From contig JAOAGY010000021.1 in assembly GCA_026415505.1 (NCBI GenBank), forward strand, positions 1-64,000: a stretch of 64,000 bases of DNA. The letters run 5' to 3'. The stretch comes from Chlorobiota bacterium. Lineage in GTDB: Bacteria; Bacteroidota; Ignavibacteria; Kapaibacteriales; NICIL-2. Position 1 is the stretch's first letter; each line of letters starts with the position of its first letter. Of this stretch, positions 26,901 through 44,637 are shown in pieces. The position numbers were made by a program, and so were the translations under genes. The notes beneath the pieces were generated by a model that searched no databases, was not told the DNA's origin, and worked only from the letters and a program-made list of their open reading frames with translations.

Positions 26901-28685
26901 CTACCGCACACTGAAATAGCGTGCTTCCGGATGATGGCAAATCAGCGCGCTCGTGCTTTGTTCGGGAACGAGCTCGTATTCTTCCGTGAGCGTGATGCCG
27001 ATGCGTTCGGGACGGAGCAACTCCATGATGAGCGCTTGGTCTTCCAAATTCGGACATGCCGGATAACCGAACGAGTAACGTGACCCCTGATAGCCTTGCA
27101 CGAATAGCTCCTTGACCGTCGGCGCGTCGCGATCGGCGATACCGAGTTCGGTGCGAACGATCTTGTGCCAATACTCAGCCAAACCTTCGGCACTTTCGAC
27201 GCTCAAACCGTGGAAGAAAAGGTAATCCCGATACCGACCGCTTTCGAAGAGCATCTGTGCATACGGCGTCGCACGATCGCCGATAGTGACGACATGGAAT
27301 GCCACCACGTCGAATTCGCCCGATTCGACCGGACGGAAGAAATCGGCAATGCAGAGAAATTTTCCCTCGCGCTGACGCGGAAATCGAAATCGAACCCACA
27401 CGACCAGCGCCGCATCGTCGGCGCGCAACCGACTGGGCGGTAACTCGCTCCATTGCTCGTAGAGCGCATCGCCCGTGCGACCGGCAGGACGATACACGAC
27501 CAGATCGTCGCCCTCGCTCTGGCACGGGAAATAACCATAAACGACCTTCGGTTGCAACAATCGTTCGCGCTTGCAAAGCAGCTTCAGCTCGTTGTACGCC
27601 GGACGTGCTTCGCGCTCGATGATAGCGGCGAATTCCTCTTCGCTGCGACGACCGCGGCGAAATTGCCACTGCCCACGAAACAGTGCATTCTCGTTGACGA
27701 ACGCGAACACGTGCTCGAGCGGAATATCCTCGACCACGCGCGATCCCCAAAACGGAGGAACGGGAATCGGTACGTCGCGCCGTACTGCCGACACTCGATG
27801 CAACACCGGTTGCCCAGCCGTAGTGCGCTCGGCTCGAACGTTGCCGACAGGCTGATCGGCGCGCTGGTGCTGGATACGCTCCAACTGGAGCGATACCTCC
27901 AGCGACGAAGTCGGCGATGCGATCGACTCGGTGTGCTTTTCGCGCCTCAACTCTTCCATGAAGCGAAGTCCATCGAACGCATCCTGGGCATAGGCGAGCT
28001 TGCCACTGTAGATAGCCCGCAAGTCTTGCTCGACAAAACGCCGATTGAGCGCTGCCCCACCGAGCACCACGGGAATGCGAATGCCGCGTGCCTCCATCGT
28101 TTCGAGATTTTCCTTCATGACGGCAGTGGACTTGACCAGCAGCCCGCTCATGCCTATTGCATCGGCATTGTGCTCCTCGACTGCCTGAAGCATTTGCTCG
28201 AGCGGTACTTTGATACCGAGATTGATCACGCGATAGCCGTTGTTGCTCAGGATGATGTCCACGAGATTTTTCCCGATGTCGTGGACGTCGCCTTTGACCG
28301 TTGCCAGCACAATCGTGCCTTTCGGCGTCGAGTCCTCGACGCGTTCCATGTGCGGTTCCAGATACGCAACCGCAGCCTTCATCGTCTCGGCAGCCTGAAG
28401 CACGAAGGGCAATTGCATCTGACCACTGCCGAAGAGATCACCGACGACACGCATGCCTTCGAGCAAAATGTCGTTGATGATCTGCAACGCCGAGTACCGC
28501 TGGAGTGCTTCGTCGAGGTCGCGTTCGATGCCGATCCGATCGCCATGAACGATGCGCTGTTTGAGTCGCTCTTCGACAGGGAGTTCAGCGCGCGACGTCG
28601 CTGCTGCCGTCTGCTGCGGTTGCTCGGCATAGTAGGCAATCAGCTCGGCGAGCGGATCGTACACACAGCGACGCACTTTCGCCAT
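26901..28685 (-). CDS. metH: Truncated-architecture cobalamin-dependent methionine synthase: cap + B12-binding + AdoMet-activation domains only
   Basis: Cap ERLKQRIVHGDRIGIERDLDEAL...GMRVVGDLFGSGQMQLPFVLQAAETMKAAVAYLEPHME; B12 motif VKGDVHDIGKNLV; activation domain RYSFGYPACPNLEDQ and HHPEARYFSV; no Hcy or pterin domain upstream (cdd is there). Confidence 0.92.
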   Translation of the reverse strand: MAKVRRCVYDPLAELIAYYAEQPQQTAAATSRAELPVEERLKQRIVHGDRIGIERDLDEALQRYSALQIINDILLEGMRVVGDLFGSGQMQLPFVLQAAETMKAAVAYLEPHMERVEDSTPKGTIVLATVKGDVHDIGKNLVDIILSNNGYRVINLGIKVPLEQMLQAVEEHNADAIGMSGLLVKSTAVMKENLETMEARGIRIPVVLGGAALNRRFVEQDLRAIYSGKLAYAQDAFDGLRFMEELRREKHTESIASPTSSLEVSLQLERIQHQRADQPVGNVRAERTTAGQPVLHRVSAVRRDVPIPVPPFWGSRVVEDIPLEHVFAFVNENALFRGQWQFRRGRRSEEEFAAIIEREARPAYNELKLLCKRERLLQPKVVYGYFPCQSEGDDLVVYRPAGRTGDALYEQWSELPPSRLRADDAALVVWVRFRFPRQREGKFLCIADFFRPVESGEFDVVAFHVVTIGDRATPYAQMLFESGRYRDYLFFHGLSVESAEGLAEYWHKIVRTELGIADRDAPTVKELFVQGYQGSRYSFGYPACPNLEDQALIMELLRPERIGITLTEEYELVPEQSTSALICHHPEARYFSVR

Positions 28686-28692
28686 CGCAGCC

Positions 28693-29130
28693 TCAGGTCG
28701 TTGTTCGGAACATGCTTCCACCGAATGCATGCGGCAACAAATCGTTCGGCGTACACCAGCGTTCGCTGCCATCGAGCGTGAGCATTGCGACCAGCGCATG
28801 CGGAGCCAGCTCAGCAATCCACTGCCGACACGCACCGCACGGCGTAATCGGTTCGGCTGTGTCGGCAGCTATCGCCACCAGCAGAATCCGTTCGGCTCCG
28901 CCGGTACGCGCAGCAGCCAGCGCAGCTCGCTCGGCACAGAGGGTCAGTCCGTAGCTGGCATTTTCGACGTTCGTACCTGCGGTAATTCTCCCAGCCGCGT
29001 CGAGCACTGCTGCACCGACGCGAAAACCGCTGTACGGTGCATACGCATACTGGCGAACGCTGCGCGCACTATCGAGCACGCTCTCGACGATGGCAGCGAA
29101 ACCGGCTGCTGTGTCGTTTTCGGAAGCCAT
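28693..29130 (-). CDS. cdd: Cytidine deaminase
   Basis: APYSGFRVGAAVLDAAGRITAGTNVENASYGLTLCAERAAL; PCGACRQWIAEL. Confidence 0.95.
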   Translation of the reverse strand: MASENDTAAGFAAIVESVLDSARSVRQYAYAPYSGFRVGAAVLDAAGRITAGTNVENASYGLTLCAERAALAAARTGGAERILLVAIAADTAEPITPCGACRQWIAELAPHALVAMLTLDGSERWCTPNDLLPHAFGGSMFRTTT

Positions 29131-40995: not shown

Positions 40996-42852
40996 ATGCC
41001 ATCGCAGCGACCGACATTTGCCGAACGTCTCAGCGATCGAGTGCGACCGATCGTCGCGGTCGGCTCGATCGAACACGAACTGGCACGACACACCGACGAC
41101 CGCCCCGAGCTTGCAGCAGTGCAATCGCCACTATTGCTCGAGGACGTCATTGCCCGTTTCGTCGAAGCAGGTGCCGAACTTGTGTTGACCCCGACAGAGC
41201 GCGCCAGTCGTTTGTGGTTGGAGCCGCTCGATCGTGCCGAGAAAGTCTATGAACTCAACCGCAAGGCGGTCTGGATCGCCCGCAAAGCAGCGCGCAAAGC
41301 AGCATACGTCGGTGGTGTCGTCGCCCCGCCACCGGCGATGTTGGAGCCGATCGGTCCGCTGACCAAGGACATGCTGCGCCGCAGTGTCGCCGAGCAAGCA
41401 ATCGCACTGCTCGACGGCGGTTGCGATGTGCTCGTCCTCAAGTCGTTCGTGGACCTCGACGAATTGCTCATCGCGCTCGAAACCGTTGCGCCGATCGCCA
41501 ACGGCACACCAATCGTCGCACTCAAATCGTTCCCCGAAGACGGCGCAGTACTGGCGACGTCGTTCCCTGCCGATGTCGCTCGTCTGCTGGCGGCACAGGC
41601 AGCCGTCGCAGCGGTCGGTGCATGCGGTACGGTCGGTCCGCAGCGGATGCGCAGCATCGTCGCAGCGATGAGAAGCGGCACCGCATTGCCGCTCGCAGCC
41701 TTGCCCGATTGCGGCATTCCGACGATCGTCGGTGGCAAAGCGATCTACACTGCCGATGCCGACTACGTCGCGCGCAGTGTGCGCCACTTAGCCGATCTCG
41801 GCACGCGCATCGTCGGAACCGATCGTGGCACGACTGTGCCGATTGTCGCAGCCATCAGCGAAGCGCTCCGATCGGAATCGCTGTCGGTCGAAGAAACGCC
41901 ACCGGCAGCACCGGCGACGCATCTGGTCGCTCCGATGGATCGCCAACCCCCGTCGAGCTTTGCCGAGGCGCTCCGCACGCGCTTCGTAGTGACCGCCGAG
42001 CTGGACATTCCGCGCGGTCTCGATATGCGAAGCGTTCTCGATGGAGCCGCATTCTTTCGCAAGCATGGTTTCGACGCGGTCAATATCAGCGACGGTGCAC
42101 GGGCACGATTGCGCGTCAACTCGATCATGCTCAGCGCGCTGGTGCAGCAGCAAACGGGCATCGAGTGCATCGCGCACATCGCCTGTCGGGATCGCAACAT
42201 GGTCGCCCTGCAGAGCGATTTGCTCGGTGCGGCATTGCTCGGCGTGCAAAACATCTTGGCGGTCAGTGGCGATCCGACGCACATCGGCGACTTTCCCCGT
42301 GCCAAGTCGGTCGGCGACCTCGATTCGATCGGATTGATTCGCGCTGCACGAATGATGAACGCCGGACGCGACCTTGCCGGCAATCCGCTCGGCAGTGCGA
42401 CTTCGTTCACCATCGCGTGTGCATGCAATCCGTGCGCCGAGGATTTGGACGAGGAACTCGACAGGCTCGCACGCAAGATCGCCGAAGGCGCCGAAGCGGT
42501 TTTCACGCAGCCGATTTTCGACCCCGACACGTGGCTGCGCTTCATCGAACGGGTACGCGCGTTGCCGGCACGGTTCATCGTCGGCGTGCTCCCATTGCGA
42601 AGCCTTCGCCACGCGGAATTCTTGCACTACGAAGTACCCGGCATGGTCGTGCCCGGCTGGGTGCGTCAGCGCTTGGCACACGCTGCAACGCCGCGACACG
42701 CCGCCGAAGAAGGTATCGCCATCGCTGCAGAGTTTCTCGCTGCCGTCCGCCCACATGCCGACGGAGTGTACCTGATGCCGCCGTTCAAAAAGTACAGCGT
42801 CGCCGTCGAAGTTCTCCGACGCGCCGGTGTGGCTGTCACAGCCGACCGCTGA
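40996..42852 (+). CDS. Homocysteine S-methyltransferase-like (Zn ligands lost) / methylenetetrahydrofolate reductase fusion
   Basis: MTHFR half: FVVTAELDIPRGLD...DAVNISDG...CIAHIACRDRNMVALQSDLLGAALLGVQNILAVSGDPTHIGDFP; N-terminal half aligns to Hcy_methyltransferase fold but catalytic motifs altered. Confidence 0.85.
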   Translation: MPSQRPTFAERLSDRVRPIVAVGSIEHELARHTDDRPELAAVQSPLLLEDVIARFVEAGAELVLTPTERASRLWLEPLDRAEKVYELNRKAVWIARKAARKAAYVGGVVAPPPAMLEPIGPLTKDMLRRSVAEQAIALLDGGCDVLVLKSFVDLDELLIALETVAPIANGTPIVALKSFPEDGAVLATSFPADVARLLAAQAAVAAVGACGTVGPQRMRSIVAAMRSGTALPLAALPDCGIPTIVGGKAIYTADADYVARSVRHLADLGTRIVGTDRGTTVPIVAAISEALRSESLSVEETPPAAPATHLVAPMDRQPPSSFAEALRTRFVVTAELDIPRGLDMRSVLDGAAFFRKHGFDAVNISDGARARLRVNSIMLSALVQQQTGIECIAHIACRDRNMVALQSDLLGAALLGVQNILAVSGDPTHIGDFPRAKSVGDLDSIGLIRAARMMNAGRDLAGNPLGSATSFTIACACNPCAEDLDEELDRLARKIAEGAEAVFTQPIFDPDTWLRFIERVRALPARFIVGVLPLRSLRHAEFLHYEVPGMVVPGWVRQRLAHAATPRHAAEEGIAIAAEFLAAVRPHADGVYLMPPFKKYSVAVEVLRRAGVAVTADR

Positions 42853-42863
42853 ACCATTGCCCG

Positions 42864-42871
42864 TATATTCG
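42864..42871 (+). promoter_or_regulatory. Putative -7 element TATATTCG
   Basis: TAnnTTCG, 54 nt upstream of 42926. Confidence 0.35.
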
Positions 42872-42925
42872 CGCAGCCCTCGCGGTGGGGCAGGTGGTGT
42901 TGTTTCACTTTTTCGGGAGCGTCCC

Positions 42926-43546
42926 ATGTCACAGGAACCTTCGCGCACAGTGCCGGTCACGGAATTGCGCATCGGATTCGGGCGCCGTCTGGTCGCCATC
43001 CTCCTCGACGGCATCATCATTGCCATTGTCTCCGGTATCCTCGCACTGAGTGCAGGCTCAGCGTTCGAACCCCTCGTCGAAAAACACATCGCAGCGCAGA
43101 CGGAAGAAATGAACGCGTCGCTATCGGAGATGGACGAAGAGCAAGCAGACATGGCGATGGGATTTGCCAAAACCGGTATCGTCTGGGGCTTCGTCGCCAC
43201 TGCGCTTGCGCTCGTGTACTCGCTGTTCGAAATCTTCGCGGCAGCTTCGCCCGGCAAAATGATGCTCGGCATCAAGATCGCCAATGCCGATGGAACTGCG
43301 GCGACCACGCAAACGCTGACGACACGCTGGCTCGTCAAAACGGGACTATCGAGCCTGCTGAGCATCGCCGGTATGCTCACTGGAACTGCGATGTTGACGA
43401 CGCTTTCGCAAGTGATCGGGCTGGTCGTCTTTCTGGGCTGTTTCCTCGTGCTCGGCAGCAACCGTCAAGCACTCCACGATATGATCGCCAAGACGGCGGT
43501 GTATCGTCGCGAGCACGTCATGCAACCGGAATCCGTCGTCATGTGA
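42926..43546 (+). CDS. RDD family membrane protein
   Basis: GFGRRLVAILLDGIIIAIVSGIL...SPGKMMLGIKIANADG...RQALHDMIAKTAVYRR. Confidence 0.87.
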   Translation: MSQEPSRTVPVTELRIGFGRRLVAILLDGIIIAIVSGILALSAGSAFEPLVEKHIAAQTEEMNASLSEMDEEQADMAMGFAKTGIVWGFVATALALVYSLFEIFAAASPGKMMLGIKIANADGTAATTQTLTTRWLVKTGLSSLLSIAGMLTGTAMLTTLSQVIGLVVFLGCFLVLGSNRQALHDMIAKTAVYRREHVMQPESVVM

Positions 43547-43548
43547 CA

Positions 43549-44637
43549 ATGGAACGCAAGCGGCTCTACTACAGCGACTATTTGCAGCTCGACAAAATTC
43601 TCGGTGCACAGCATCTGCGAAGCTCCGAGCTGGGCGAGCCAGCACACGAGGAAATGCTCTTCATCATCGTCCACCAGGCATTCGAGCTGTGGTTCAAGCA
43701 ATTGCTGTGGGAGTTGCGCGACGCGATCGCACGCTTGGGGCAGGATTACGTTCCGGAATCCGACGTCGGCATCGCACTCGATCGGATTCGGCGGATGCTC
43801 GCGATCGTCGAACTTCTCGAACGGCAGTTCGACGTTCTCGAAACGATGACCCCACAACAGTTCATGGAATTCCGCGACCTGCTCTATCCCGCCAGTGGCT
43901 TCGAGTCGGTGCAGTTCCGCATGCTCGAAGTGCTCTTGGGAGTCGATGAGCGTCATCGCGTCCAGATTGACGCAGCGGGGTATCGAGCGCGGTTGCACGA
44001 CCACGATCGCACCGCGCTCGAACGCGTCGCCGCCGAGCCGAACCTTTTCGCGACGATCGAACGGTGGCTCGAAAAAATGCCGTTCATGGAATCGAGCGGC
44101 TATCGTTTTCTCGATGCCTACCGCCGAGCGGTCGAGCGCATTTTCGCTCACGACCGCGAAGAACTTCACCGCGTCGCGACGCTCAGCGACGACGAACGCC
44201 GCAAACAGCTCGACCAAATCGCCCGACTGGAAGCGCATTTCGCCGCACTTTTCGACGAAGGCGCTTACCGCCAGCTCATCGAGCGCGGCGAAAAACGCAT
44301 GTCGCAGCGCGCTACACTGGCGGCGTTGTTCATCGCTGTGTACGCGAACTATCCTCTGCTTCAGCAGCCGTACCGCTTGCTCGATGCCGTACTGGAGCTG
44401 GACAAACGGGTAAGTCTGTTTCGGTTTCGACACGCGCTCATGGTCAGCCGGATGATCGGGCAGCGGACAGGAACGGGCGGATCGAGCGGATTCGACTATC
44501 TGATGAAAACCGTGCTCCAGCATCGCGTGTTCACCGATCTGGCAGCGCTCGCCAGCTACATTCTCCCGTCGTCGCAAGTGCCGCCGCTCCCACCGGACAT
44601 TGCGGAAAAGCTGCACTTTGTCGCAGAGCTGCGTTGA
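43549..44637 (+). CDS. kynA: Tryptophan 2,3-dioxygenase
   Basis: YYSDYLQLDKILGAQHLRS...HEEMLFIIVHQAFELWFKQLLWEL; TPQQFMEFRDLLYPASGFESVQFRMLE; GTGGSSGFDYLM. Confidence 0.95.
   Translation: MERKRLYYSDYLQLDKILGAQHLRSSELGEPAHEEMLFIIVHQAFELWFKQLLWELRDAIARLGQDYVPESDVGIALDRIRRMLAIVELLERQFDVLETMTPQQFMEFRDLLYPASGFESVQFRMLEVLLGVDERHRVQIDAAGYRARLHDHDRTALERVAAEPNLFATIERWLEKMPFMESSGYRFLDAYRRAVERIFAHDREELHRVATLSDDERRKQLDQIARLEAHFAALFDEGAYRQLIERGEKRMSQRATLAALFIAVYANYPLLQQPYRLLDAVLELDKRVSLFRFRHALMVSRMIGQRTGTGGSSGFDYLMKTVLQHRVFTDLAALASYILPSSQVPPLPPDIAEKLHFVAELR

Follow-up and report, generated by a model that had tools for sequence, protein, structure and literature searches.

A homocysteine-methyltransferase-type barrel fused to MTHFR lacks its zinc site throughout a clade of Kapabacteria-type bacteria

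We analyzed a stretch of 64,000 nucleotides (the window) from a Chlorobiota bacterium (assembly GCA_026415505.1, contig JAOAGY010000021.1). It encodes a protein in which a homocysteine-methyltransferase-type barrel without zinc ligands is fused to MTHFR. The relevant features, in window coordinates and with residues numbered in the fusion protein, are:

40996..42852, + strand: fusion gene (618 amino acids), zinc-less homocysteine-methyltransferase-type barrel plus MTHFR
41047..41871, + strand: homocysteine-methyltransferase-type (beta/alpha)8 barrel, residues 18-292, from Pfam, profile alignment, and the structural model (TM 0.87)
41059..41076, + strand: strand 1 motif VGSIEH, replacing DGAMGT; the clade consensus is DGSM/I, and S24 is conserved
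41440..41448, + strand: strand 4 motif KSF, replacing ETF; K149, with the homocysteine-binding Glu lost
41617..41640, + strand: strand 6 motif GACGTVGP; zinc ligand 1 is replaced by G211
41704..41712, + strand: strand 7 motif PDC, with D238; the clade consensus is PDIG, versus PNAG/PAAG
41815..41835, + strand: strand 8 motif GTDRGTT; zinc ligands 2 and 3 are replaced by D276 and R277; the clade consensus is GADGGA
41977..42816, + strand: MTHFR half, residues 328-607; E335, D426, and Q505 are kept
26904..28835, - strand: C-terminal half of MetH (cap, cobalamin-binding, and activation domains), outside the fusion and given as context

A sequence-only reading of this DNA had described the fusion's reading frame as uninterrupted and its MTHFR half as intact, and both statements hold. 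The frame is open from end to end, and E335, D426, and Q505, which align with E28, D120, and Q183 of E. coli MTHFR, are invariant in 44 sequences. Together with a match to PF02219 (MTHFR) in Pfam (residues 328-585, 103 bits), these residues place the C-terminal half in that family. The protein also has a full-length match to NF006396 from NCBIfam (residues 21-609; 513 bits versus a cut-off of 453), the equivalog for bifunctional homocysteine S-methyltransferase/MTHFR. Just one of the two active sites in that name is present: the MTHFR residues are kept, and the zinc site is gone.

As checks on the barrel, the same reading had proposed a PF02574 profile search and a superposition on MetH from Thermotoga maritima, and we ran both. 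PF02574 (homocysteine S-methyltransferase) matches residues 23-291 with 102 bits. AlphaFold2 modeled the full protein with pLDDT 87 and pTM 0.82, and the N-terminal half alone with pLDDT 90 and pTM 0.89; the latter model superimposes on T. maritima MetH with a TM score of 0.87 at 25% identity. By profile and by fold, then, the N-terminal half belongs with the homocysteine methyltransferases.

The main claim of the sequence-only reading was that this barrel aligns end to end with the homocysteine methyltransferase domain and has nonetheless lost all three zinc cysteines. We confirmed both parts. A profile of 16 barrels from the clade covers the whole homocysteine domain of T. maritima MetH (E = 1e-46). 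In pairwise and profile alignments, the zinc ligands C207, C272, and C273 of T. maritima MetH (numbering counted from the profile alignment) fall, in the window protein, on G211, D276, and R277. None of the three ligand cysteines of PF02574 is present. The motifs had also been read correctly: VGSIEH stands for DGAxGT, KSF for ETF, and GTDRGTTV for GGCCGTTP. The Glu of ETF contacts homocysteine in BHMT. This Glu is K149 in the window protein. Outside the window's genus, 50 of 52 clade members have Lys or Arg at the position; within the genus, all five members have Lys.

Cys210 of the window protein sits one residue ahead of the first ligand position. We rejected it as a shifted or substitute ligand because even the genus does not conserve it: the four nearest relatives have Ser there, and most others have Asn. 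A search for an alternative Cys/His metal site found no Cys or His among the barrel positions that are conserved in 95% of the clade.

The enzymes around the fusion bear on what the barrel could be doing. PF02219 matches this genome only once, at the fusion gene, which is therefore its sole MTHFR. MetH is split into two unlinked genes. One of these encodes the homocysteine and pterin half (642 amino acids; contig C21, L126:4036-5964, + strand), with DGAMGT, NC, and GGCCG intact, and the other is the C-terminal half listed above. (In families f8 and f14, the frames with the homocysteine domain are similarly short; in family f3 they are about 1210-1245 amino acids.) There is also a near-identical copy of the homocysteine half of MetH that is cut by a contig end and has a different upstream gene (L002, G000:C34:60566-61264); this could be either a duplication or an assembly artefact. 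We considered whether the genome has a second, zinc-bearing fusion that compensates for the first and rejected this, as there is just the one match to PF02219, and the other matches to PF02574 are the MetH gene and its near-identical partial copy.

Fourteen other genomes with the zinc-less fusion carry a second homocysteine domain of the MetH type, with GGCCG and, where the first ligand was read, NC. Another genome from the window's genus (G143) has the zinc-less fusion and MetE, and its only homocysteine-domain match is the fusion itself. Since MetH or MetE is present, methionine synthesis is independent of the fused barrel; since the fusion is the sole MTHFR, the supply of methyl-folate depends on the fused MTHFR. 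In G143 the fusion coexists with MetE, and no homocysteine-methyltransferase domain beyond that of the fusion is seen, which weakens the suggestion that the barrel is a partner for MetH.

Might the barrel still methylate homocysteine, either without a metal or via another metal site? The fold is preserved, with its TM score of 0.87 to T. maritima MetH, and the NF006396 score is above the cut-off. But none of the three ligands is left, Lys stands in for the Glu of ETF, the clade has no conserved barrel Cys or His with which to rebuild a zinc site, and the genome encodes a MetH whose site is intact. Residual activity of this kind seems very improbable.

We took 51 loci from 85,462 species genomes, and further loci from the class, the phylum, and the families of the window's genome. 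The sequence-only reading had proposed that the substitutions be checked in relatives, as their absence there would point to a sequencing error. The triad is absent from 57 of 57 non-redundant members of one Kapabacteria-type clade. Because the substitutions recur across dozens of independent genomes, in every clade member whether closely or distantly related, we rejected sequencing or assembly error. Sister fusions from the same class retain NCTVGP and GACCGS. We built two trees, one from the MTHFR half and the other from the barrel after taking out its catalytic-face loops. Both group the zinc-less proteins as a single clade, supported at 100/99 and recovered in 100% of bootstrap trees. This strongly supports a single loss of the zinc site, in the ancestor of the clade. 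Profile scores across 299 genomes of the phylum separate the zinc-less proteins (at least 390 bits) from the remaining hits (at most 349 bits), and among the next-ranked hits that are not zinc-less, NCTVGP is kept in the four with the motif read there.

The full-length fusion is kept in every near-complete genome that we sampled, from families f1, f2, f3, f5, f8, and f14. It is present in 8 of 8 genomes of the window's own family, where one copy reaches the edge of its contig. In one 67%-complete genome of f14, no fusion was seen.

In the same order, a second, separate clade has undergone its own, independent loss of two zinc cysteines out of three. It comprises five genomes from two genera of family f4 (L072, L190, L192, L193, and L194), with the motifs NST, GGC(L/V)G, and PSAG, and these fusions sit on a distant zinc-bearing branch. 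Also, 13 of the 41 sampled genomes of family f4 lack any match to NF006396, which suggests that this part of methionine synthesis has been lost in several genera.

The changes in the zinc-less clade extend beyond the ligands. Counting differences that are fixed at 85% or more, and with the window's genus set aside from the clade, 11 barrel positions differ between the clade and its zinc-bearing sisters. Seven of them are in the strand-end loops of the catalytic face: A24S, E149K, T150S, C211G, A238D, C277G, and S279A. This corresponds to 7 of 49 loop positions, versus 4 of 226 others (Fisher p = 0.0007, with loop boundaries that we set from the strands of the model). Other thresholds give p = 0.003 (80%) and p = 0.0001 (90%). 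The mean frequency of the commonest residue is 0.83 in the loops and 0.64 elsewhere in the barrel. The new residues S24, K149, S150, G211, and D238 are conserved in the clade; position 276 is A, S, C, Y, or F instead of Asp in one subclade. Across 31 zinc-less pairs, the barrel has a median dN/dS of 0.048; across 14 zinc-bearing pairs, the median is 0.070. These values are rough, as branches are shared between pairs, some genomes are present twice with different locus identifiers, and dS often approaches saturation. Judging from these alignments, the change at the zinc site is a coordinated rewiring rather than decay. The loops are more conserved than would be expected of a purely structural remnant, which would be compatible with catalysis or specific binding.

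Within the window's genus, part of the new clade motif is eroded (D22V, N66P, and G277R). The five members that we read have V or I for D22, P for N66, and R or H for G277, and they keep S24, T67, K149, S150, K177, E181, G211, D238, and D276. The stem of the genus is 0.72 changes per site in the barrel tree, versus about 0.25 in a separate quick tree of the MTHFR half, so the barrel changed faster than its partner in this genus. Such a long stem, together with the second lineage that is also losing ligands, might indicate a relaxed, decaying domain that is heading for loss and is kept merely because it is in frame upstream of MTHFR. Yet dN/dS in the clade is about 0.05, no deletion of the barrel was observed, and the new motif is conserved. 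We consider decay to be improbable.

Near the fusion gene are genes for an RDD protein, a tryptophan dioxygenase, a ComF-like protein, and MauE/DoxX-like proteins. As these are not one-carbon genes, we rejected a functional partner from the gene neighborhood. The order of the fusion, the RDD protein, and tryptophan 2,3-dioxygenase (window 42824-44637) is shared with distant families. A MauE/DoxX-like gene lies upstream of the fusion in 22 relatives and is absent from that place in the window.

The rewired face may instead have acquired a new role, either in catalyzing a different reaction or in recognizing a specific ligand, using K149, D238, D276, and S24 along with the inherited K177 and E181. 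For instance, it might perform a folate- or C1-linked step that is coupled to the MTHFR half. The new residues were fixed together in one ancestor, the new motif is strongly conserved outside the window's genus, and dN/dS is low, all of which is consistent with neofunctionalization. However, some of the candidate residues vary (D276 differs in one subclade, and the window's genus has lost D22 and N66), the nearest folds are without exception zinc methyltransferases, and the gene neighbors (the RDD protein, the tryptophan dioxygenase, and the MauE/DoxX-like proteins) do not suggest a partner reaction. Also, no enzyme with this fold is known to use such a site. Overall, we view a neofunctionalized barrel as possible but rather unlikely. 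Equally tentative is the idea that the barrel gained a function in catalysis or effector sensing, linked to methyl-folate synthesis, when the ancestor of the clade lost its zinc site.

We lean towards reading the N-terminal half as a pseudo-methyltransferase that serves the organism's sole MTHFR as a structural or ligand-binding domain and is not itself catalytic. The ancestor would have been a bifunctional homocysteine methyltransferase/MTHFR fusion whose zinc and homocysteine site disappeared a single time, in the clade's ancestor. We propose that this happened because methionine was already supplied by MetH or MetE and the fused MTHFR was the sole source of methyl-folate. The barrel would thereby have lost homocysteine methylation, and we propose that its retention reflects a requirement of the MTHFR half, be it for folding, oligomerization, or covering the active site. 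If so, MTHFR would depend structurally on the barrel. The former active-site face would now be a pocket of S24, T67, K149, S150, K177, E181, G211, and D238, joined in most members by D276. Such a pocket seems better suited to a salt-bridge network or to binding a small charged effector than to zinc-dependent thiolate methylation. The sequence-only reading had likewise described a retained pseudoenzyme. Retention of the zinc-less barrel is strongly supported by its single origin, by purifying selection, and by the lack of observed domain loss; the evidence is compatible both with that reading's scaffold or allosteric partner and with its barrel acting on another substrate.

The database name of NF006396 ("bifunctional") probably assigns this clade an activity that is now gone. 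The equivalog model gives homocysteine methyltransferase activity to the entire clade, which lacks the catalytic metal site, and such annotations would mislead reconstructions of the methionine pathway in these uncultured bacteria. The clade is also a clean natural case of a metal site that was lost once, with coordinated rewiring and then strong selection, and it can be compared both with a sister group that still bears zinc and with a second loss that arose independently.

We found no description of this zinc-site loss in the open-licence papers that we searched. The closest known systems include the NF006396 fusion of the YitJ/SamT type from Bacillus subtilis. YitJ is an AdoMet-dependent homocysteine methyltransferase in B. 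subtilis (PMC6302742), and in an engineered strain E. coli metF took the place of yitJ (PMC9618320). The window's clade resembles this type in its domain order, its full-length profile match above the cut-off, and its MTHFR catalytic residues. It differs in lacking the zinc cysteines, in having Lys for the Glu of ETF, and in its new DGS, KSF, NGTVGP, PD, and ADGG motifs. BHMT and MmuM share the fold (TM about 0.7-0.8), but the window's barrel lacks their zinc triad and homocysteine-binding Glu. The homocysteine domain of T. maritima MetH (residues 1-566, PDB 1q7m/3bof) has the same (beta/alpha)8 fold, with the TM score and identity given above. There, C207, C272, and C273 are in place and the partner is a pterin-binding barrel, whereas here the cysteines are replaced and the partner is MTHFR.
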